Below, in pieces: positions 13,433-26,642 of a stretch of DNA of 64,000 nucleotides. A model generated the notes under the pieces. That model saw only the letters and a program-made list of their open reading frames with translations. It did no database searches and was not told where the DNA came from. Each line of letters opens with the position of its first letter. Position 1 is the stretch's first letter. Origin of the DNA: Arthrobacter sp. SLBN-83 (GTDB taxonomy: Bacteria; Actinomycetota; Actinomycetes; Actinomycetales; Micrococcaceae); assembly GCF_006715285.1 (NCBI RefSeq), contig NZ_VFMX01000001.1:2356001-2420000 (forward strand). The letters are read 5' to 3'. The position numbers were made by a program, and so were the translations under genes.

Positions 13433-13649
13433 GCCATTCGCCACCCTTCCACTCCGATATTGCCGGTATCTACTTTAGGTTCGGCCCCGGCGTACCCGGT
13501 AATTGGCGGCCGCTTTACCGGGCAGTCCCGCTGGCCGTGACGCAAACTGTTCTCTCTGTGCGCCATTCAGGAGTGCCCCAGACTTGAAGAGTAGGGTGAA
13601 AGCCGGTTGCCACCACTGCAGCAATTCGATGCGAGAACCGGAGACACGC

Positions 13650-15860
13650 ATGCCCAAGGGAGTTCCTCCCCAATCCACGTCCAAGCCGCCCGAGCGCCGG
13701 AGCCCGTTGCGCGTCGCCGGCATCACGCTGGGCTGGTTCGTGGGCTTCCTTGCCGTCAGCGCCATTTGCGGGGCCCTTGTTGCCGGTCTGATGATGCCGG
13801 CGGCAGCCGTGACGGAGACGGTGGTGGCGGGCGGATCCCAGGCCCTGACCACCAACCTCCCCAACGACGTCTTTTCCGCGCCCCCGGCACAGATGACGCG
13901 TGTGCTTGCCGCGGACGGGTCCCAGATTGCCACCCTCTTCAACGAGAACCGGACCCGGATTCCCCTGGACCAGATGTCGCCCAACATCAAGAACGCGATT
14001 GTGGCGATCGAGGACTACCGGTTTTACCAGCACGGCGGCATTGATCCCGAAGGCATCTTCCGGGCACTGGCGGTGGACGCCGCCGGCGGGCACCAGGGCG
14101 CATCGACACTGACCCAGCAGTACGTCACCAACATGCTCAACGAAAACCTGATCGCCCAGGGCAAGGACGCCCAGGTGGTGCTCAACGGGCAAAAAGGCGT
14201 GAACCAGAAGATCCAGGAAATGAAGCTCGCCATCGGCCTCGAGGAGAAGTACTCCAAGGACCAGATCCTGGCCGGATACCTGAACGTGGTGGGTTTCAAC
14301 AGCAACGCATACGGCATCCAGGCCGCCAGCCAGTACTTCTTCTCCGTTGACGCCAAGAACCTCACCCTGCCCCAGGCGGCACTGCTCGCCGGCCTGGTCA
14401 ACGGCCCTTCACTCTACGATCCCACCGTCCACCCCGAGGCCTCCAAGTCCCGGCGCGACCTGGTGCTGGATGCGATGCTGCAGCACGGCTACATCAACCA
14501 GCAGCAGCACGACGACGCCGTGAACACGCCCATCCAGCTCAAGGTCAACCCTCCCAAGCAGGGCTGCGCCTACGCTCCCCAGGCTCAATACTTCTGCGAC
14601 TACGTCATCCACCAGATCGAGAATGACCCGGCGTATGGCGCCACCCTGGATGACCGCGACCAGAAGATCATGGCAGGCGGCCTGACTATCAAGACCACCC
14701 TGGATCCCCGGCTGCAGGCACCGGCCCAGGCCCAGGTGGACGCCACCGCCGGTGCGAACCCGGACAAGTGGGGAGCCTCGCTGGTAACCATCGAACCGGG
14801 CACCGGAAAAGTCCTGTCCATGGCACAAAATTCACGGAAGCTGCCCGGCCAAGGTGCGGGATTCGTCTCCGACTACAACTTCAATGTAGATGGCAGTGAC
14901 GCCGCCGGAAACAGCTTGGGCGGTGTGGGTGGCATGCAGCCCGGCTCCACCATGAAGCCGGTGACCCTGGCAGCGTGGCTCGGCGAGGGTAAGTCAACGA
15001 ACCAGATCGTTGATGCCTCCAAGCGGCGCTACGGCATCTACTACCCCTGGAAGACAACCTGCCATCCGGTGCAGGGCTGGTTCGACAGCACCGTGAAGGA
15101 CTCTTCGGACCTGCAGAACGATGAGCCCAACTGGTACCGCCCCATGACGGTCCGGGAAGGCATCTATCAATCGATCAACACGGCCACGTTCGCCTCCCTC
15201 GCCGGGCTCAACGATTTCTGCGATGTCCAGCGCGCCGCGGACGCCATTGGCCTGCACCTGGGCAGCGGAAAGGACGAGAAGATCGACCTCTCAACCCTGG
15301 GGAACATCCTGGGCAGCCAGAACGTGGCACCCCTGACCATGGCGAACGCCTTCGCGACCTTCGCGGCCAACGGCACCTACTGCAGCCCCATTTCCATCAC
15401 GGAAGTGGACGACGCCCAGGGCAAGAAGATCGGGGGTCAAACATCCTCCTGCCAGGCCGGAGCGCTGAAACCCGATGTTGCCAAGGCTGTGACCAACGTC
15501 CTCCAGGACGTCCTCACCAAAGGCTCCGGCCTGCTGATTCCGCAGAAACTCGGGGTCCCGGATGCCGCCAAGACCGGCACCAATGAATGGAACAACCAGA
15601 CCTGGGTGGTGGGCTACACGAAAGGTCTGGCCACGGCATCCTTCTTCGGCGATCCCTTCAACGGCGGCCCGGGCCGGTTGGGCCGCAACATCACCGTCAA
15701 CGGCAAGTTCTATCCCGCCGTGGACGGAGCATTCATCGCCGGCCCGCAATGGGCCCAGTACATGCAGGGGGTAGTGGGCCTCTACGACCACGGAAACTTC
15801 GATGCGCCGCCGCAGAACCTCATCAGCGACCCCGCAGGACAGCGGACCAAGAGCAACTGA
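13650..15860 (+). CDS. Class A penicillin-binding protein (GT51 transglycosylase plus transpeptidase)
   Basis: Bifunctional peptidoglycan synthase anchored by one N-terminal helix. From ATG 13650 (GGAGA five bases upstream) the protein is 736 residues. Helix at about 23-60; GT51 domain with catalytic Glu in EDYRFYQHGG at 121 and GASTLTQQ at 150-157; transpeptidase with STMK at 433-436, SIN at 508-510 and KTGT at 641-644. All key residues are intact. The tail is short and neutral, without PASTA repeats. A broken near-copy lies at 21627-22163. Confidence 0.95.
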   Translation: MPKGVPPQSTSKPPERRSPLRVAGITLGWFVGFLAVSAICGALVAGLMMPAAAVTETVVAGGSQALTTNLPNDVFSAPPAQMTRVLAADGSQIATLFNENRTRIPLDQMSPNIKNAIVAIEDYRFYQHGGIDPEGIFRALAVDAAGGHQGASTLTQQYVTNMLNENLIAQGKDAQVVLNGQKGVNQKIQEMKLAIGLEEKYSKDQILAGYLNVVGFNSNAYGIQAASQYFFSVDAKNLTLPQAALLAGLVNGPSLYDPTVHPEASKSRRDLVLDAMLQHGYINQQQHDDAVNTPIQLKVNPPKQGCAYAPQAQYFCDYVIHQIENDPAYGATLDDRDQKIMAGGLTIKTTLDPRLQAPAQAQVDATAGANPDKWGASLVTIEPGTGKVLSMAQNSRKLPGQGAGFVSDYNFNVDGSDAAGNSLGGVGGMQPGSTMKPVTLAAWLGEGKSTNQIVDASKRRYGIYYPWKTTCHPVQGWFDSTVKDSSDLQNDEPNWYRPMTVREGIYQSINTATFASLAGLNDFCDVQRAADAIGLHLGSGKDEKIDLSTLGNILGSQNVAPLTMANAFATFAANGTYCSPISITEVDDAQGKKIGGQTSSCQAGALKPDVAKAVTNVLQDVLTKGSGLLIPQKLGVPDAAKTGTNEWNNQTWVVGYTKGLATASFFGDPFNGGPGRLGRNITVNGKFYPAVDGAFIAGPQWAQYMQGVVGLYDHGNFDAPPQNLISDPAGQRTKSN

Positions 15861-17935: not shown

Positions 17936-18118
17936 GCCTCTCCCTTCCCGGGCGGCGCCCTGCCTCCCAGGAAAACACGTACCCATGGACCGGATCCGGA
18001 ATTGCATCTGCTTGCTGGGAATGCTCTGGGAATTATGGCTGAGGCAGGTATTGCGCCCTGCTGAATTGCAGTATCAATTACTGGTCAGATCTGCGGATGG
18101 GACGCTTAGCCTTCATCC

Positions 18119-18271
18119 ATGCTGAGAATCGTGAAGCAGATCCTGCGATCCAAGCCAAAGTGCCGGTACTGCGGGCAGGCCCTCCCTCCAACTGAGTCTG
18201 CGGCATTTTGCTCCCGTGACTGTTACGACGGCTATCAGTACTGGGACGGCACTGCGGCTCACGAAAAATAG
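18119..18271 (+). CDS. 50-residue zinc-ribbon-type protein
   Basis: Small basic protein starting MLRIVKQILRSKPK, with CRYCG at residues 15-19 and FCSRDC at 31-36: four cysteines in a CxxC...CxxxC pattern that would bind one zinc. It ends YQYWDGTAAHEK. An in-frame stop at 18107-18109 limits the start to ATG 18119 or GTG 18131; no strong ribosome binding site is seen. No family recognised. Next gene downstream on the same strand is the repeat protein at 18385. Confidence 0.6.
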   Translation: MLRIVKQILRSKPKCRYCGQALPPTESAAFCSRDCYDGYQYWDGTAAHEK

Positions 18272-18384
18272 TATCGCCGTAGCGTCCACAACTCTTCGCA
18301 AAACTACTAACCATGCTTAGTATTGTGGGGCGCGGCTGTCCGCTGGGGGCAGAGCACCCGCGCTGCACCGGAGGTTTTTCAAGC

Positions 18385-19041
18385 ATGGACAACGAGATGC
18401 GTCCCCTCACCGATGAAGAACTGATGTCGGAGCAGGCCACCGCCCTGCCGGACAAGGAAGTGGCGTCCGTCCTGGACCTGAACGCGGACCTGGATCTGGG
18501 CATCAACGCAGCGGCGCCCATCGATTTGGCCGTCGCCGCAAACGCCAACGTCGCCGCACCGATCGATGCTGCCGCCTCGGCCAACATTCTCTCCTTCGGC
18601 TCGGACGCGCAGGCACTGTCCAGCCAGGACGCCGCCATTGACCAGGGCATCACCGCCGACGCCAATGCCGACTCCACCCAGGACAGCCTGATCGGTCAGG
18701 GTGACGGCACCACCGACACGGGCACCACCGATGGAACGGCCGGTGCGGTGACAGATCCCACCAGCACCGGTGGGCTCACTGACGCAGCCGGTGCGCTGAA
18801 CGGCAATCTGCTGAACGTTGACGTGAACCTGGACGCCGATGCCGCCATCGCCGCACCCATCAACGGTGCCGTGGCCGCAAACGCCAACGTGGCTGCACCC
18901 ATCGACGCCGCAGTGGCCGCCAACATTGGCTCCATCGACAGCCAGGCGTACGCCATCTCGGACCAGAGCGCCACCATCTCGCAGCACATCGACGGCGAGG
19001 CGAACGCCACCGCCGGCCAGCAGTCCGACCTGCAGCAGTAA
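18385..19041 (+). CDS. Asp/Ala-rich repeat protein next to an M50 protease; possible substrate
   Basis: 218 residues from ATG 18385, GGAGG 10 bp upstream. Low-complexity Ala, Asp, Asn and Ile composition, no cysteine. Two diverged copies of a module occur: DLNADLDLGINAAAPID near residue 31 with NANVAAPIDAAASANILSFGS, and DVNLDADAAIAAPINGA near 150 with NANVAAPIDAAVAANIGSIDS; each is followed by a QSSQDA- or DQSATI-type tail. A Gly/Thr-rich linker (TTDTGTTDGTAG) joins them. No signal peptide. The downstream protease starts 6 bp after its stop, so they are co-expressed. Role unknown; a leader-like N-terminus plus a PqqD-type partner makes a processed substrate possible. Confidence 0.7.
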   Translation: MDNEMRPLTDEELMSEQATALPDKEVASVLDLNADLDLGINAAAPIDLAVAANANVAAPIDAAASANILSFGSDAQALSSQDAAIDQGITADANADSTQDSLIGQGDGTTDTGTTDGTAGAVTDPTSTGGLTDAAGALNGNLLNVDVNLDADAAIAAPINGAVAANANVAAPIDAAVAANIGSIDSQAYAISDQSATISQHIDGEANATAGQQSDLQQ

Positions 19042-19047
19042 GCAAAC

Positions 19048-21489
19048 ATGACCCAAACCCACGGCGGCCCGCCTCCTGAGGCGGGCCCGCCGTCGTCACG
19101 CGTCTCTGTTGCCCCGGACCAGCCGGGCCAAATTACGACGGCGGGTCCCCACCTTCCGGCACGGGCGGACGGCGTCCAGCTGCTGGGCACCGCAGAGGGG
19201 TCCGGCTACCGCGAACCGCCCGCCCTGGTGCGCCGCGCCGACGGCCAGACCCTCCAGCTGACCCGCCTGCTGTACCTGGTGCTGGAGGCGGCGGACGGGA
19301 CCCGCGACCTGGACGGCATTGCGCGGCACGCCAGTGAAGGCTCCGGGCGGCTGGTCAGTGCAGACAACGTCCGTACCCTGATGGACTCGCAGCTGCTGCC
19401 CATGGGCCTGCTTCGGCTCGCCGACGGCAGCCAGCCGGAGGTCAAGAAGTCCAACCCGTTGCTGGGTTTGCGCTTCCGCTACATCGTGTCCGATCCTGCC
19501 CGCACCCGCAGGATTACCGCACCGTTCGCGGTGCTGTTCAACCCGCTGATTTTGGTGGCCGTGACGGCTGCGTTCCTGGTCGCGTGCTGGTGGGTGCTCA
19601 TGGTCAAGGGTCTCGGCTCGGCCACCCATGAGGCTTTCGAGCAGCCTGCCCTCCTGCTGCTGATCCTCGCCGTCACCATCCTGTCGGCCGGCTTCCACGA
19701 ATTCGGCCACGCCGCCGCCACCCGCAAGGGCGGAGCGACCCCCGGGGCCATGGGCGCCGGGCTCTACCTGCTGTGGCCAGCCTTCTTCACGGACGTCACC
19801 GACTCCTACCGGCTGGGCCGCGCGGGCAGGATCCGCACCGACCTGGGCGGCCTGTACTTCAACGCGATCGTGGCAGTCGCCATCATGGGACTGTGGTGGG
19901 CCACCGGCTTTGACGCGCTCCTGCTGGTGGTGGTCACGCAGATCCTGCAGATGATCCGCCAGCTCATCCCGCTGGTCAAGTACGACGGCTACCACATCCT
20001 GGCGGACGCCACCGGCGTGCCCGACCTGTTCCAGCGCATCAAACCCACCCTCCTGGGGATCCTTCCCTGGCGCTGGGGAAGCCCGGAAAGCAAGGTGCTC
20101 AAGCCGTGGGCGAGGGCCGTCGTCACCGTCTGGGTGCTGGTGACCGTACCGGTGCTGCTGTTCAGCATGGTGATGATGGTGCTCTCCCTGCCACGGCTGC
20201 TGGCCACAGGGTGGGTCAGCGTGGTCAAACAGCAGGAAGCGCTGGCGGCGAGCTTTTCTTCCGGCGACCTGCTGGGCGTGGCCGTTCGGGCCCTCGCCAT
20301 TGTTGTGGTGGCGGTCCCGGTGCTGGGCGTGCTGTACATCGTGGTGCGGTTGCTGCGGCAGCTGGTCACGGGGCTCTGGCAGAAGACCCGCGGCAAGGCC
20401 GTGCAGCGCACAGCGGCCATGACCGCCGTCGCAGTCCTGCTGGCAGGGCTCGCTTGGGCGTGGTGGCCCGACGGCGGGACGTACCGTCCGGTGCAGGCCT
20501 ACGAACGCGGGACGCTGGGTGATGCAACGCGGGCCATCCTGCCCCAGCGCGGACGTGAGCGCGTGGAATTGCGGGAGGGTGCTTCGGGGCGGACTGTTGC
20601 GCTGTGGCCTGCGGGTGCTGTGAAGCCCACCCGGGACAACCCCCAGCTGAGCATGGTGCTGGTGCCGGCGGATGCTTCATCGGACGGTGCCTCCCCGGGT
20701 GGCAGCACCTCTTCTGCTGTTGCTCCGTCCTGGGTGTTCCCGTTCGACAGGCCGGCCGCCCCCGCCGCCGACGGAAACCAGGCGCTCGCCGTCAACACCA
20801 CCGACGGCTCGGTGAAGTACAGCGTGGCCTTCGCGCTGGTGTGGGCGGAGGACGGGGAACCGGTCACCACCACCAATGAGGCTTACGCCTTTGCCAACTG
20901 CTCGGGATGTGGGGCGGTGGCCGTGGGGTTCCAGGTGGTCCTGGTGGTGGGGCAGACCGACGTGATCGTGCCGCAAAACCTTTCGGCGGCTGCCAACTAC
21001 AACTGCCTGGACTGCCTCACCTATGCCCTGGCCAGCCAGCTGGTCCTGACCCTCGACAAGCCCTTGGACGGAGACAGTAAGCAGCAGCTCGAAGCCCTGT
21101 GGGCGCAGATCGCGGAGTACGGCCGGAACATCCAGAACGTCCCGCTGTCCGAAATCCAGGCAACGCTTAACGGGTTCAAGGACCAGATCACGGCCATTGT
21201 GAAGGGTTCTTCGGTTTCCGGGGGCACCTCTGTGGCGACGTCGCCCGCTTCGGCGGGCCCCAGTGGCGATCCGACCCCTGGCCCCACTTCGTCCTTCGCC
21301 CAGGATGGGCCCTCCGCACCCGCCGATGCACCTGCTCCGGCAGCGACTGGCGGTGCCACCGCACCGGCGGGCCAGCCTCTGGGAGGCGGGCAGCCGACGT
21401 CGTCCGTTGACTATGCATCGCCGGCACCTACTGCTGATTACGGGGGAGGGGAGACCCTGGCGCCTGCACCTACTTCCAGCGCGGGCTGA
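19048..21489 (+). CDS. PqqD-like domain fused to M50 (site-2 type) membrane metalloprotease
   Basis: 813 residues in several parts: an N-terminal PqqD-like winged-helix region at about 55-125 (LVRRADGQTLQLTRLLYLVLEA, DLDGIARHASEG); a membrane protease with the zinc motif HEFGH at 217-221 and a distal KYDGYH at 311-316; about ten helices to residue 475; an extracytoplasmic domain with two CxxC pairs, CSGC at 618-621 and CLDC at 653-656; and a Pro/Ser/Thr-rich tail. The fusion resembles peptide zinc metalloproteases of RiPP clusters. No radical SAM enzyme or cyclodehydratase is nearby. Confidence 0.82.
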   Translation: MTQTHGGPPPEAGPPSSRVSVAPDQPGQITTAGPHLPARADGVQLLGTAEGSGYREPPALVRRADGQTLQLTRLLYLVLEAADGTRDLDGIARHASEGSGRLVSADNVRTLMDSQLLPMGLLRLADGSQPEVKKSNPLLGLRFRYIVSDPARTRRITAPFAVLFNPLILVAVTAAFLVACWWVLMVKGLGSATHEAFEQPALLLLILAVTILSAGFHEFGHAAATRKGGATPGAMGAGLYLLWPAFFTDVTDSYRLGRAGRIRTDLGGLYFNAIVAVAIMGLWWATGFDALLLVVVTQILQMIRQLIPLVKYDGYHILADATGVPDLFQRIKPTLLGILPWRWGSPESKVLKPWARAVVTVWVLVTVPVLLFSMVMMVLSLPRLLATGWVSVVKQQEALAASFSSGDLLGVAVRALAIVVVAVPVLGVLYIVVRLLRQLVTGLWQKTRGKAVQRTAAMTAVAVLLAGLAWAWWPDGGTYRPVQAYERGTLGDATRAILPQRGRERVELREGASGRTVALWPAGAVKPTRDNPQLSMVLVPADASSDGASPGGSTSSAVAPSWVFPFDRPAAPAADGNQALAVNTTDGSVKYSVAFALVWAEDGEPVTTTNEAYAFANCSGCGAVAVGFQVVLVVGQTDVIVPQNLSAAANYNCLDCLTYALASQLVLTLDKPLDGDSKQQLEALWAQIAEYGRNIQNVPLSEIQATLNGFKDQITAIVKGSSVSGGTSVATSPASAGPSGDPTPGPTSSFAQDGPSAPADAPAPAATGGATAPAGQPLGGGQPTSSVDYASPAPTADYGGGETLAPAPTSSAG
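19062..19092 (+). promoter_or_regulatory. GC-rich hairpin at the 5' end of the M50 gene
   Basis: CGGCGGCCCGCCT and AGGCGGGCCCGCCG form a 13-bp stem with one bulged base and a four-base loop (CTGA region), starting 15 bp into the protease gene and just after the stop of the repeat protein. No T tract follows. It may lower protease expression relative to the repeat protein. Confidence 0.5.
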
Positions 21490-21626
21490 CGGGCTTTTGT
21501 TGGGAATGCGCCGTGAACTCCCCTGGAGTCCCGCGTGGTTGCGGGGGAAAGCCCATGACGCCAGGGGCAGGACGCGTGGGGTGAAAACGTATGCTTGCCG
21601 GCGAGGAAGAAGATCCGGAGACACGA

Positions 21627-22163
21627 ATGGCCTCACGAGTCCCGTTCTGAACCTCCCCAACCGGCCCCGGGGCAGGGGCCTGTTTCGCGCCACGGGAATG
21701 ACGCTGGGGTGGATCCTCGCCTTCCTTGGCGTCAGCGTCCTCTGTGGAGCCCTGGTGGCCGGGTTGATGGTGCCCGCCGCAGCGTTGACCGAGTCGGCCG
21801 TGGGAGGCGTGTGCTTGCCGCGGAGGGGTCCCAGATTGCCACCCTCTTCAATGAGAACCGGCCCGGATTCCCCTGGACCAGATGTCGCCCAACATCAAGA
21901 ACGCGATTGTGGCGATCGAGGACTACCGGTTTTACCGGCGCGGCGGCATTGATCCGGAAGGCATTTTCCGAGCACTGGCGGTGGACGCCCCCGGCGGGCA
22001 CCAGGACGCATCGACGCTGACCGAGCCGTACGTCACAATGAGTGGAACAACCAGACGTGGGTGGTGGGCTGCACGAAAGGCCTGGCCACTGCATAGTTCT
22101 TCGGCGATCCCTTACCTGAGTCGAGGGGGAGCCTGCGGGTCGAAACCTGATGTGCGTGGCTGA
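21627..22163 (+). pseudogene. Decayed partial duplicate of the class A penicillin-binding protein
   Basis: Nucleotide-level copy of the gene at 13650-15860, broken four ways. (1) A frameshift gives MASRVPF then a stop at 21648. (2) About 80 bp are missing after TESAVG, between the membrane helix and the GT51 domain. (3) One base is lost in GAGAACCGG-CCCGG near 21858. (4) After the ACGCTGACCGAGCCGTACGT segment (22013-22032) the sequence jumps to the AATGAGTGGAACAACCAGAC segment, which in the intact gene lies about 1.45 kb further on, past the catalytic Ser and Lys. The GT51 stretch 21816-22030 is almost identical to the intact copy, so the duplication is recent or was gene-converted. Confidence 0.85.
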
Positions 22164-22374: not shown

Positions 22375-24489
22375 TCAGGGCGCAAAACCGGATGCTGTCA
22401 GGGACGCGAAGGGCGCTGTTCCCAGTGGGTTTCCGGCCATGTCCGTAAAACCCGTTGGCGGTGTGTAGCCAGGCTTTCCGGGAACAACACCGACATTGAG
22501 CGTGCCTGCACCCGAGCTTCCATTGGGCGCATTGCCGAACGTGATGATCAGCGCGTTATTTGTACCGTCCCACGTCAGGGTGGACGTGGTTCCATTAGCC
22601 CCGAACGTGGCCGGGTTGCCGGTCAGATAATCACCACCGAGCGTGACGGTACCTATGCTGCAGCCACTGAACGAGAAGGCCAGTGAGTCATTGCTGCCCT
22701 TGTCGGTGATGGTGGCGGTGCCGGACGGAGTAGTCGTCCAGGTGGAGCACACCTTGGTTTGATCCATTTTCTCCGAGAACGTGATGGTGACGGTGTCGCC
22801 AGGATCAGCGGAGGCCTTATTGGTATTCGTCGAACCTCCGTTGGCCAGTTTGATTCCCGTGACAGTTGGGGGAGCGGTGTCCTTCGCAGTGGTGCCGGAG
22901 GCGGTGGCCGTGGTGGTGTTGCCGGCGCCATCCGTAGCGGACGCGGTGTAGGTCAGCGCGCCGTCGGCGAGGCTGGAGATGTCCACCGTTGTCGACCATG
23001 ACGTTCCTGTGGGCGTCACTTGGGCCGTCACCGATTTGAATGCCGAATCCCTTACGGTGACCGTCACGACGGTTCCAGACTCCACAGTGCCGTTCACCTT
23101 GCTGCTCCCGCTGGCGTACAGGGGCGCCGTGATGGTCAGTGCCGGAGCAACGGTGTCCTTCGTATCCGATGCAGTGACCGCAGTGCTGGTGTTGCCCGCC
23201 GCGTCTGTGACAGTGACCGTGTAGGCGACCGGACCGTCTTTGACCGTCCCGAGGTTCATGCTGGCGGACCATCCCCCGCTGGCGTTGGCCGTCGGCGCGA
23301 CCGTGACGGGGGTGGCAGTTCCCGGACTCGTGGCAGACACGGTGACGGTCGCGTTGGCTTCAGCGCTGCCCGAGACGGGGACGGCGCCAACGTTGCCGGT
23401 GTTCACGTAGGCGGGCACTCTCACCCCAGCTGCCGGCCCAGGAACGTTGGTGTCCTTCGTGCTCGTGGCGGTCTTGGCTGCACTGGTGTTGCCTGCAGCG
23501 TCCGTGGCGGTGGCCGTGTAGGTCACCGTTCCCTCGTTCAGGCTGCCGAGGTTCAGGGTGGCGGACCAGTTTCCGCTGCTGTCCGCGGTGGGGGTAGCAG
23601 CGGGCGTGGTGTGGGCGGAACCTGCGTCGGCCGCAGTGAGCGTGATCTTCGCATTCGCCTCTGAGGTTCCGGTAATGGTCACTCCCGCAACCGTGGCGGC
23701 GTTGACGTATGGCGGAGCGCTGAGCGTAAGCACTGGCGCCTGGGTGTCGATCCTGACCGTCAGGCTCTGCGCCGACCCGGGATTGCCCACCTGGTCCGTC
23801 GCGAAGTACGACACCGTGTGCGTCCCGTCCCCGGTGACCGGCATAGTGGCGACGGCCGCGCTGACCGTCTGCTGCGCGCCGCCGTCGACCCCGTACGTAA
23901 TGGAGGCGACGCCGGAACCGTTCGTGCCGTCGTCGGCCGTGACCGTCACGGTGACGGGGCTGCTGTTGTTCCAGCCCGCTGCGTTGGGAGTGGGTGAAAC
24001 TGTGGCTGCCGCGCTGGGCGGGGTGGCATCGCTGCTGATTCCGTTGCTGCGCGGGCTCTCGGCGCCGGTCCAGAGTGCGATGGCAGGGGTGACGGTGTAG
24101 TACCAGGTGCCGCCCGGGACGTTCTGCTCCGTGCAGGTGAGGGTGGTTACGGTGTCCGCGCAGCCGCCGGTGGCCGGGATGGCGGTCCCGCCGGTGGCTG
24201 ATGAGTAGCGGGCCACGGTGTAGCCGGTGGCGGCACGGCCGTTGACGGTGCTGCCGCTGGCCCAGGTGACCGAGAGTGCGGCGCCGTTCGCGCTGACGGC
24301 CGGCTTGGAGCCCGGGGTCAGGGCGTCGGCTGCGGCGGCGGCGTTGTTGCTGCTGGTGGTGGAGGCCCAGAAGGCGTAGGCGGCAGTGCCAGAGCCGAGC
24401 AGGAGCAGGACCGCTGTGATGATCCACGTGAACCTGCGGGAGGGGCGGCGGCCGACGAAGAGTGACGCGTTGCGGACGGCGAGGCTCAT
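22375..24489 (-). CDS. Large secreted protein with Ig-like repeats and alternate-type signal
   Basis: 704 residues from ATG 24489, whose ATGA overlaps the end of the preceding gene. The N-terminal signal WIITAVLLLLGSGTAAYAFWASTTSS has the AYAFW motif shared by four other proteins here. It is followed by a fibronectin-like region and several bacterial Ig-like modules, each ending YTVTVTDAAGNTS or YTATATDAAGNTS and each opening with APxLT and a TSEANAK or SAEANAT segment. The last part, GDTVTITFSEKMDQTKV onward, resembles SwmB/Ig adhesion repeats. It lacks an LPXTG motif. Probable extracellular or surface adhesion protein. Confidence 0.8.
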   Translation of the reverse strand: MSLAVRNASLFVGRRPSRRFTWIITAVLLLLGSGTAAYAFWASTTSSNNAAAAADALTPGSKPAVSANGAALSVTWASGSTVNGRAATGYTVARYSSATGGTAIPATGGCADTVTTLTCTEQNVPGGTWYYTVTPAIALWTGAESPRSNGISSDATPPSAAATVSPTPNAAGWNNSSPVTVTVTADDGTNGSGVASITYGVDGGAQQTVSAAVATMPVTGDGTHTVSYFATDQVGNPGSAQSLTVRIDTQAPVLTLSAPPYVNAATVAGVTITGTSEANAKITLTAADAGSAHTTPAATPTADSSGNWSATLNLGSLNEGTVTYTATATDAAGNTSAAKTATSTKDTNVPGPAAGVRVPAYVNTGNVGAVPVSGSAEANATVTVSATSPGTATPVTVAPTANASGGWSASMNLGTVKDGPVAYTVTVTDAAGNTSTAVTASDTKDTVAPALTITAPLYASGSSKVNGTVESGTVVTVTVRDSAFKSVTAQVTPTGTSWSTTVDISSLADGALTYTASATDGAGNTTTATASGTTAKDTAPPTVTGIKLANGGSTNTNKASADPGDTVTITFSEKMDQTKVCSTWTTTPSGTATITDKGSNDSLAFSFSGCSIGTVTLGGDYLTGNPATFGANGTTSTLTWDGTNNALIITFGNAPNGSSGAGTLNVGVVPGKPGYTPPTGFTDMAGNPLGTAPFASLTASGFAP

Positions 24490-24974
24490 TTGCGGACCTC
24501 CGCCGTCACTGGAACGCTGAACGTTGCGCCCTGGCAGGCTGCGAGCGAGGTGGTATCCATGGTGGCCGCTCCGGGGAGGGTGATGAGTGCCGACGAGTCC
24601 GCGGCAACGTAGGTTGCGGGGGTGAGAGGTGCGGCGGTTCCGGTGATGCTGACGCCGGTGGTGGTGCATCCGGGATGCGCGGCGTCCGCTGTGACAGGCC
24701 CGTTGCCGGTGACGCTGTAGACCTGCACAGAGTAGGGGTTGGGATTGGTCAGGCGGAGGACGACGTCGGCGCTACCGCCAGGGTAGAGGGCCGCCTTGGG
24801 GTTGTCGCCGGCGACGAGGGCGTCCACGGTGACGGCCTGCATGGTGCCGGCGGCTGCCGAGCCGCTCCCGGCGCCCGTGCCGCTCCAGAAGGCGTAGGCC
24901 GTTCCGGCGCCGGCGGTCACGAGGAGGCCTGCGAGGGCAGCTGCCCTGAAGCCACGGCTTCTTGTGGGTGACAT
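24486..24974 (-). CDS. SipW-type alternate-signal exported protein
   Basis: 162 residues. Signal RAAALAGLLVTAGAGTAYAFWSGTGAGSGSAAAG with the AYAFWS motif and small-residue stretch of TasA/camelysin-like proteins. The mature domain is beta-rich and has cysteines in HPGCTTTG and AACQGATFSV, plus a NPNPYSVQVYSV strand. It is coupled by ATGA overlap to the Ig-repeat gene and is 1 bp after the 24976-26112 gene, so all belong to one operon. Function unknown, perhaps a surface-fibre or matrix component. Confidence 0.72.
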   Translation of the reverse strand: MSPTRSRGFRAAALAGLLVTAGAGTAYAFWSGTGAGSGSAAAGTMQAVTVDALVAGDNPKAALYPGGSADVVLRLTNPNPYSVQVYSVTGNGPVTADAAHPGCTTTGVSITGTAAPLTPATYVAADSSALITLPGAATMDTTSLAACQGATFSVPVTAEVRK

Positions 24975-24975
24975 C

Positions 24976-26112
24976 TCAGTTCCCCTGTCCTGATCCTGAG
25001 TAGCTGAGCTGGAGGGCGGCGCCTTTGCAGCCGTCCTGGTTGGTAGACGTGTCCAGCATTCCCACCCGCGGCCAGGCGGTCTGTGCGACGTTGAGCCCCT
25101 GGAGGGAACCGCCCGCGGCCGGAACTGCCAGCGGGTAGGGGCCGCTGTACTGGGTGACGATGAAGTCGGCCGGCGTGCAGGGCAGGTTGGCTGCCACGGC
25201 GGCCGCGCTCCTGGTGACGCCCGCGACGGCGACCGAAAGGTTGGTCAGCGACAAAGGCTTGTTGATGGGGTTACTGATCTGCAGGTTCAGTCCGGCCGAG
25301 GTGCCGGGGGACAGGGCGCCTGGGAGGGACCCGGAGATGCCGAACTGTTTGATGGTGGAGTCCAGGACCAGTTGGACGTTCGCGTAGGCGTACTGCGCCT
25401 TCCCGGCGGAGTCCTTGCCGGTGCCCATCAGGTAGAGGCTGGAGGTTCCGGTGGGGGAGGCGTTTGTGGCGGCCACCTGGAGGGTGGTGGAGTTCCCTGT
25501 GGCCGGGTTGGGCGAGAACGATGCGGTGGCTCCCGCCGGCAGTCCGCCCAGGACGCTGAAGGTGATGGGTCCGCTGAGGTTGGTGCGGCTGAGCTCCAGC
25601 GTGTAGACGGCGGTGGCACCCGGCGGAATGGTGACGGAGTCCGGGGTGGCAGTCATCGAGAAGGAGCCGGAGATTTTGTAGTTCACCGTGAGGCTGGCCG
25701 ATGCGCTGCCGGAGACCTTGCCGCTCGCCGCGGTGATTGTGATTGTGCTTGTGCCCGCCGGCGTCGTTGCGGCGGTAGTGGCGTTCAGGGTGGCCGTTGT
25801 GGTGCTGCCGGAGCTGAGGGTGACGAACGACGGCGTGAACGCGCCGCTTGCGCCGGCCGGAAGTCCCGCGGCGGCCAGGTTCACCGTGCCACTGAATCCG
25901 CCGGTGGAGGTCAGGGTTACCGTGTAGGACGCTTGCTGGCCCTGTTGGACGGACTGGCTCGCGGGGGAGACCTGCACCGTTATGCCCGGCTTTGGATTGT
26001 TGGCCGCCGCAATCAGCGATCCGGCACCGGCCAGCAGCAGCACCAGCGCCACCAGTGCTGCCTTAATTCCGATCCGCCTGCGACGCTGCGCATGCCCGTC
26101 CTGCTCGTGCAC
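24976..26112 (-). CDS. Secreted Ig-like protein, third gene of the alternate-signal operon
   Basis: 378 residues from GTG 26112 (GGAAGAGG upstream). After an Arg-rich start and one N-terminal helix ALVALVLLLAGAGSLIAA, the mature protein begins NNPKPGITVQVSPASQSVQQ. Two Ig-like domains follow, with the signature of putative-Ig folds: SYTVTLTSTGGFSGTVNLAAAGLPAG and YTLELSRTNLSGPITFSVLG. The C-terminal domain resembles the 24486 protein, with CTPADF and DGCKGA cysteines. It lacks the AYxW motif. Probable surface protein. Confidence 0.7.
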   Translation of the reverse strand: MHEQDGHAQRRRRIGIKAALVALVLLLAGAGSLIAAANNPKPGITVQVSPASQSVQQGQQASYTVTLTSTGGFSGTVNLAAAGLPAGASGAFTPSFVTLSSGSTTTATLNATTAATTPAGTSTITITAASGKVSGSASASLTVNYKISGSFSMTATPDSVTIPPGATAVYTLELSRTNLSGPITFSVLGGLPAGATASFSPNPATGNSTTLQVAATNASPTGTSSLYLMGTGKDSAGKAQYAYANVQLVLDSTIKQFGISGSLPGALSPGTSAGLNLQISNPINKPLSLTNLSVAVAGVTRSAAAVAANLPCTPADFIVTQYSGPYPLAVPAAGGSLQGLNVAQTAWPRVGMLDTSTNQDGCKGAALQLSYSGSGQGN

Positions 26113-26189
26113 CCTGTGCCCCTCTTCCTTCGGTGCAAATGACGGCAAGCCGGGGGCGGATTCGCACCGCCCCCGGCCCGCTCGCTTAG

Positions 26190-26642
26190 TTAGTGGCTGG
26201 TGACGTTGACCGTAATGGTGGCGGTCTTGCAGGCGTCCTGGTTATCCGCGGTGTCCGTGAAGGTCAGAGTCCCCGTGCCCACGGTCGTTCCGGTCGTCTT
26301 CGCCAGAACCGTCGTCGGTGAGTTGGACGCGTCGACGGTGAACCAGCTGGCGAGACACTTCGCGTCACTCGTGGCCACCGTCGGAGCCAAGCCCGCGACA
26401 ACCGTGCTGGAGGTGTTCGAGTTGTCTGCCGTGTAGGTCACTGCCCGAGTTTCGCCTGGTGCAATTCCCGTGGCGAACGAGGAGTGCAGGGTGACTTCGT
26501 TGTTGCCTGCCGACGCGACAGCAGATCCCGTACCCGAACCCGTCGTGCTCCAGTAGGCGTACGCTGCACCGCCGCCGGCTGCCAGCAGCGTCGCGGACAG
26601 AGCAACAGCGGCGATCTTGTTCTTCTTGGTCATTTTGCGCAT
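26190..26642 (-). CDS. SipW-type alternate-signal exported protein, first gene of operon
   Basis: 150 residues from ATG 26642 with AAGGAG seven bases upstream. Signal NKIAAVALSATLLAAGGGAAYAYWSTTGSGTG, motif AYAYWS. The mature beta-rich domain has cysteines in AKCLASWF and DACKTATI and an ADNSNTSSTVV strand, and is a paralogue of the 24486 protein. It is followed by three related genes with 0-80 bp gaps. No SipW-like signal peptidase lies in the window. Confidence 0.72.
   Translation of the reverse strand: MRKMTKKNKIAAVALSATLLAAGGGAAYAYWSTTGSGTGSAVASAGNNEVTLHSSFATGIAPGETRAVTYTADNSNTSSTVVAGLAPTVATSDAKCLASWFTVDASNSPTTVLAKTTGTTVGTGTLTFTDTADNQDACKTATITVNVTSH

Follow-up and report, generated by a model that had tools for sequence, protein, structure and literature searches.

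The window analysed here, a stretch of 64,000 nucleotides of Arthrobacter sp. SLBN-83 (contig NZ_VFMX01000001.1, positions 2,356,001 to 2,420,000), contains two adjacent genes that encode an acidic repeat protein and a membrane protease. Their open reading frames (ORFs) lie on the same strand and are separated by 6 bases from stop to start. An initial annotation, made from the sequence alone, had described this ORF pair and its gap, the Asp/Ala repeats, the HEFGH motif and two CxxC pairs of the protease, all of which are as described. It had further suggested that the repeat protein may be the recognised and cleaved or exported substrate of a peptide-processing system that lacks the usual enzymes of ribosomally synthesized and post-translationally modified peptides (RiPPs). 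The pair is real and conserved, and it is an unusual variant of precursor processing by proteases in which a RiPP recognition element (RRE) is joined to a site-2 protease (S2P). The features of the two genes are collected in Table 1.

Table 1. Features of the gene pair (positions in the window; aa, amino acids)
Feature	Position	Strand	Basis
Shine-Dalgarno-like GGAGG ahead of the repeat-protein gene	18370..18374	+	sequence
Putative two-unit acidic precursor protein, 218 aa	18385..19041	+	ORF, composition; homologue 5' of protease in 25/25 full-length relatives and 80/80 loci
Leader-like N-terminus, LTDEEL...LPDKEVASVLDLN	18385..18492	+	alignments; LPxKEVxS motif
Unit 1, residues 43-106	18511..18702	+	self-comparison; conserved strand-part columns (71-108) all odd
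Variable Asp/Thr/Gly/Pro linker	18703..18807	+	alignments; mean identity 26%
Unit 2, residues 142-218	18808..19038	+	self-comparison; conserved strand-part columns (184-218) all even
RRE-S2P (M50) membrane protease with CxxC domain, 813 aa	19048..21489	+	ORF, family searches, alignment, AlphaFold2 (AF2) model, fold comparison
RRE (PqqD-like) domain, residues 35-126	19150..19425	+	AF2 model; VIA-align Z up to 8.1 to RRE-leader complex
Site-2 protease core, residues 140-382; HEFGH 19696-19710, DGY 19984-19992	19465..20193	+	fold match 3b4r, Z 7.3; motifs
CxxC domain, residues 560-725, probably extracellular; CxxC 20899-20910, 21004-21015	20725..21222	+	alignment; homologous separate proteins
Pro/Ser/Thr/Ala-rich low-complexity tail	21253..21486	+	sequence; predicted local distance difference test (pLDDT) ~26-36 from residue 731

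Conservation and distribution of the gene pair

Among 59 related genomes, that of the window included, both genes are present in 25 and neither in 34, and none carries one of them alone. The full-length proteases counted here have an identity of at least 57%, and 9 of the 34 genomes without the pair show no M50 matches beyond weaker or partial ones. The repeat gene is upstream of the protease in all 25 full-length relatives. A collection of species genomes scanned with the repeat protein gave 199 confirmed relatives, and in the loci of the best 80 of these 199 the protease is always just downstream of the repeat gene (80/80; the protease of L107 is cut by a contig end). Conservation of the pair, proposed earlier as a check, is thus confirmed. 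The spacing between the genes is at most 10 nucleotides in 89 of 104 loci; start codons of the locus ORFs were chosen by rule, and contig ends truncate L107 and L096. The 105 loci, the window's own among them, comprise 96 distinct repeat proteins and 95 distinct proteases and are not independent. Three alignments, picked for diversity, hold besides the window 17 of the 25 loci (A1), 49 of the 105 (A2) and 30 of the 105 (A3).

No third conserved gene, and hence no conserved modifying gene, was found across 24 diverse loci (24 of the 80, with flanks of at most 8 kb and ORFs of at least 70 aa). The neighbourhood test reported gene groups shared with at least three other loci; apart from antisense shadow ORFs, it also gave a group of dehydrogenases in 5 loci and one of transporters in 4, which were judged incidental with their positions unchecked.

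The system is widespread yet patchy in Actinomycetota, and the two-gene unit is carried by many soil actinobacteria. Loci placed in the protease tree come from Micrococcaceae, Microbacteriaceae, Intrasporangiaceae, Nocardioidaceae, Geodermatophilaceae, Mycobacteriaceae, Pseudonocardiaceae and Micromonosporaceae, some of them being metagenome bins. Of 119 genomes sampled evenly across the phylum, seven are matched by the repeat profile, four with the long protein and three by weak matches to short ones, and nine by the protease core at E 1e-20, one of which is of daptide type. In the tree, the proteases that accompany double-unit proteins form a single clade (support 100/100) that roughly tracks host families. 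None of 50,697 phage records holds a protease-core relative at E 1e-3, and of 117 pattern matches in viral contigs none was confirmed. Six plasmid records hold a relative of the protease core, each with less than 60% identity, and one short precursor used as query against plasmids had no match. At L062 (7336-7815) and L065 (6998-7774) extra C-terminal fragments of the protease, which look like partial duplications, are found just 5' of the repeat gene.

The repeat protein

The repeat protein contains 50 Ala and 27 Asp but neither Cys nor Trp, and its 33 Asp and Glu residues stand against 3 Arg, Lys and His. No hydrophobic stretch reaches the strength of a signal peptide or a transmembrane segment (best 19-residue mean 1.25). 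The leader-like N-terminus follows the pattern LTxEEL...LPDKEVxSxLDLN, and LPxKEVxS is found in all 105 loci, counted without de-duplication. Behind it are two units; of 63 positions aligned without gaps they agree at 38, a value reached by none of 10,000 shuffles.

Over 29 loci the mean identity to the window is 81% in the leader (residues 19-42), 74% in the units and 26% in the linker, and in the protease it is 73% in the S2P core, 64% in the RRE and 60% in the CxxC domain. The conservation of the units therefore equals that of the catalytic core and exceeds that of the RRE and CxxC parts. Moreover, columns conserved to at least 90% share one parity, 10 of 10 being odd within residues 71-108 and 12 of 12 even within residues 184-218, as expected of strands with one buried face; these two ranges cover the predicted strands and were chosen after the alignment was seen. 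In residues 43-70 the conserved columns do not alternate.

In searches of Pfam, NCBIfam, PHROGs and the PDB sequences, neither the repeat protein nor the CxxC domain reached the curated cut-off of any family. Ten_N (E 0.021), Gasdermin (0.16) and Strep_pep (0.82), each matched by one repeat protein, were set aside as weak.

The protease

In the AF2 model of the protease the front domain is well predicted, as is most of the membrane core apart from a dip at residues 231-250; the greater part of the C-terminal third is modelled poorly. In the modelled front three strands (residues 44-48, 59-62 and 68-71) are followed by three helices (73-81, 88-99 and 105-116), as in PqqD and TbiB1. By VIA alignment, residues 35-126 match the TbiB1 RRE-leader complex with Z 8.1, PqqD (5sxy) with 7.2 and TruD (4bs9) with 7.0, and some winged-helix structures tie with them; the PqqD-like front that had been suspected from the letters is in this way upheld by its predicted fold. 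Fold likeness in a model is by itself no proof of leader binding. When the protease was searched as a whole with Foldseek, nothing matched at E 0.001 or better; the two front domains were resolved by VIA alignment.

Residues 140-382 find their best solved match in the site-2 protease of M. jannaschii (root mean square deviation 5.2 over 157 residues), with a Z value, 7.3, that is middling for helical proteins, and PF02163 matches 4 of 50 protease members (best E 0.066). Of the motifs typical of M50 peptidases, HExxH is represented by HEFGH at residue 217 and the distal LDG/DG type by DGY at residue 313; the HEFGH residues together with D313, G314 and Y315 are invariant in 50 aligned rows. HEFGH is present in 104 of 104 proteases, partly by construction because the proteases were located by HExGH. 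A weak match of the window protease to phrog_31992 (E 0.045) was set aside.

The CxxC pairs, at residues 618 and 653, belong to a domain whose homologue is a separate protein in L128, L130, L127 and L148 (tblastn 8e-22 and 2e-14; BLASTP 1e-12 and 3e-11; alignment). Judged by eye, these stand-alone homologues have a signal-peptide-like start, which speaks for an extracellular position of the fused domain. The second rung of the CxxC domain aligns without gaps with the precursor unit, at E 0.046 with the double-unit profile and 0.005 with the profile of the short precursors described below. The latter score was reached by 0 of 400 column shuffles and, when parity was kept, by 0 of 400 shuffles of the precursor and 0 of 199 of the CxxC domain. 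Because the hhalign probability of this match stays at 1-7%, a common ancestry or fold of the CxxC domain and the precursor unit is treated as suggestive only. The CxxC protein of L127 has weak matches to DUF7351 (E 0.0011) and CpXC (0.0061), which were set aside. In L128 (2666-3442) and L130 (2961-3764) the CxxC gene is followed by a lipoprotein-like gene, which is related between two genomes of different GTDB families (E 8e-17) and matched by no Pfam family.

Sister systems with short precursors

In other classes of Actinomycetota a sister protease, with 42-45% identity over front and core, adjoins two or three short precursors (L128, L130, L160 and L162). In these a leader with LPERE, LPERA or LEDRE is followed by a single copy of the unit core, LINANLAAPVNAAVAANVLSDxSxAYANAEQ...IDQS. 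They are mostly 64-92 aa long, one ORF reaching 132 aa when its first start is taken. Since the short precursors beside sister proteases carry one unit-core copy behind a leader, the repeat protein of the window is most simply read as their fused two-unit form. This fused double-unit precursor, and a CxxC domain that is elsewhere a separate protein and appears weakly unit-like, go beyond what the initial annotation contained.

The short-precursor profile was made of 13 rows, the second short precursor of L130 being left out. Short-type proteases do not form one clade in the tree, where L130 stands apart; L161 is labelled there as short-type, though only a basic leaderless unit protein was found at that locus. 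No precursor was recognised in L150, and in L129 (G064) the contig ends ahead of any visible protease. Small basic leaderless proteins with a similar unit (e.g. ISAAVAANVGE...SQRVSIVQR) are encoded in L128 (6828-7055), L161 (5263-5520) and L160 (3113-3313), and are possible cytoplasmic partners.

Further sister proteases adjoin different short precursors with related leaders. In L124-L127 (G013, G015, G030 and G051) a sister RRE-S2P protein with a C-terminal ParA/MinD-like ATPase part, for which weak family matches were tested in L126 only and which was recognised by eye in the other loci, is beside paired precursors of about 66 aa with an LLPxRETL leader. Another precursor type adjoins the same kind of protease in L163 (757-1157), L164 (4050-4310) and L165 (3364-3552); it has an LPxR leader and a hydrophobic LLG/GLPL-rich core and often ends in GPGWLIGS. 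On a plasmid of Streptomyces changanensis (L149, 3497-5670), two near-alike Gly-rich, Cys-containing precursors with an LLPERAVL leader are found beside an RRE-S2P protein.

Comparison with known systems

The best protease models of NCBIfam are those of daptides and epipeptides, both below cut-off: NF041824 aligns with residues 58-393 of the window protease at 102.3 bits (cut-off 300), and NF058609 scores 35.6 bits (cut-off 225). The daptide protease MpaP/DapP likewise joins an RRE at its N-terminus to an intramembrane site-2 protease and is encoded beside its precursors, and the daptide leader motif is ELExMEAP (PMC10036551). The leader of the window type carries LPxKEVxS instead. Where daptides have an invariant C-terminal Thr, the repeat proteins end in Gln (98 of 105), Ala (3), His (2), Asn (1) or Pro (1), and the oxidative decarboxylase, aminotransferase and methyltransferase of daptides have no counterpart among genes conserved at the loci. 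A daptide-type protease, which is beside LEALEAP precursors ending in Thr (L152), and that of L133 are split off by a long 100/100 branch. In L133 (G022), from a same-genus genome without the window's pair, the daptide-like RRE-S2P gene adjoins that of an ABC-transporter ATPase (PF00005).

With the epipeptide protease EpeP/YydH/LiaK the window protease has the M50 core in common, but the window-type substrate is far larger. Epipeptide systems have a radical-SAM (S-adenosylmethionine) epimerase gene next door; no radical-SAM partner is conserved in the 24 loci or present among the window neighbours scanned. The curli proteins CsgA and CsgB are made of repeated beta units with alternating conserved Ala, Ser and Gln, the partner carrying similar units. 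The repeat protein, with its predicted beta units, and its CxxC partner resemble them by analogy in these three respects, but the spacing differs. Chaplins use ordinary signal peptides. Together with the rodlins of Streptomyces, they are self-assembling surface proteins of actinobacteria, to which the proposed assembly of the repeat protein is likened. By the tests made, the pair is not a member of the daptides, epipeptides, curli or chaplins, and no publication recognisable as describing it was found in the literature searched.

A proposed mechanism and its alternatives

The observed basis for a mechanism is formed by the gene pairing, the RRE-like and S2P-like folds, the shared leader motif, the unit duplication, the parity of the conserved strand columns and, as judged by eye, the signal-peptide-like beginnings of the separate CxxC proteins. 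The precursor, without a signal peptide, would at first stay in the cytoplasm. The N-terminal RRE of the protease would bind the LPDKEVxSxLDLN leader, according to the established logic by which an RRE brings a leader to its enzyme (PMC10036551 and PMC7470986), and the site-2 protease would cut near the border between leader and unit. The apparently unmodified acidic two-unit remainder may then be moved out with the help of the same membrane protein, because the M50 protease EpeP is believed to perform both cleavage and export of its peptide (PMC10885120) and no transporter is conserved. Outside, the strictly alternating Ala/Ser/Ile/Gln units would form a beta-sheet stack, as parity, composition, conservation and the CxxC resemblance suggest, and more speculatively the unit-like CxxC domain might act as docking or starter rung for it. 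To this scheme of leader-guided cleavage, probable export of an unmodified two-unit protein and beta-stacking outside, with the CxxC domain as possible partner, we give an even chance of being right. The earlier idea of recognition, proteolysis and substrate has strong indirect support from the co-occurrence, the folds, the leader motif common to short precursors and the lack of a conserved modifying gene; it is thereby upheld in part, with binding and cleavage as predictions.

Several observations weigh against the scheme. Unrelated winged-helix structures that are not RREs tie with RREs (8hkr, Z 8.1), and fold Z values of 7-8 rank as middling on the tool's own scale. The Pfam PqqD model PF05402 has no match at the locus up to E 10, although this model retrieves other RREs incompletely according to the RRE-Finder paper (PMC7470986). 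Deletion of epeP left some EpeX production (PMC10885120). The predicted structure of the repeat protein is poor (pLDDT 50, too poor for a structure search), so that the beta-stack proposed for the two-unit protein is a reading of its sequence, and the Ala/Val stretches of the precursor could act in membranes instead. Most of the CxxC region is poorly modelled as well; the score of this domain with the double-unit profile was reached by 2 of 150 shuffles, and the low hhalign probability counts here too. Finally, the curlin family PF07012 has no match in the window's own genome up to E 10, whereas an E. coli control matches (Csg secretion genes were not searched for), and the chaplin family is not among the six Pfam families found at E 1 or below in 31 repeat-protein members.

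The mature product could also be an antimicrobial, cannibalism-type or signalling peptide freed by leader removal, comparable to epipeptides and daptides, and not a structural protein. This would suit the two models that head the NCBIfam list, both below cut-off, and the short multi-copy precursors of the sister systems. However, the units are conserved across families like the catalytic core and do not diversify, the product would be long, acidic and duplicated, and no conserved third gene is present for immunity, modification or transport; we consider such a peptide unlikely. Strict co-occurrence would also fit a complex in which the repeat protein serves the protease as regulator or adaptor, the true substrate being elsewhere, as in sigma-factor site-2 proteolysis. 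We hold this to be quite improbable, because the logic of leader and RRE and the several precursor copies per sister protease fit substrates better.

It is also conceivable that the repeat protein is cut and handled in the membrane or the cytoplasm and never exported, with the CxxC domain sensing something outside. The precursor has no signal of any kind and no export machinery was identified, but the separate CxxC proteins start like signal peptides and resemble the unit, and we rate this explanation as very unlikely. That the two genes are unrelated neighbours has a nearly negligible probability, given a linkage of 80/80 (among the best 80 of 199) and 25/25, and no point in its favour was found.

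On a bolder view, the pair might represent a minimal surface-fibre pathway independent of signal peptides, in which one membrane protein reads the leader, cuts, exports and starts assembly on its own CxxC rung. This rung would correspond to a CsgB-like starter fused to the exporter-protease and built like the substrate; we regard this extension as doubtful. The RRE-S2P fusions of daptides remove the leaders of short modified peptides, whereas here a long, unmodified-looking and duplicated conserved protein takes their place and no further gene is conserved. This suggests a use of leader/RRE logic that may extend beyond small peptide products to proteins of the cell surface or matrix. The pair is a genetically simple two-gene system for asking whether an M50 protease also exports its substrate.

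Surroundings of the gene pair

No sigma-70-like site was found on the + strand of 18000-21800. Neighbours scanned in the window include a penicillin-binding protein, DUF2127, a TatA-like protein, a Na/Ca exchanger and Ig-like surface proteins. Directly 3' of the protease gene, partial copies of the penicillin-binding-protein gene of 13503-15860, with 72-94% identity, lie within 21611-22113. The PqqD family has a clear match (48 bits) at G000:C1:2313065-2313259, about 43 kb upstream of the window. On the minus strand, 22378-26642 encodes a series of proteins with signal regions of the AYAFW/AYAYW type (by eye), one of which carries Big_13/Ca_tandemer adhesin repeats.

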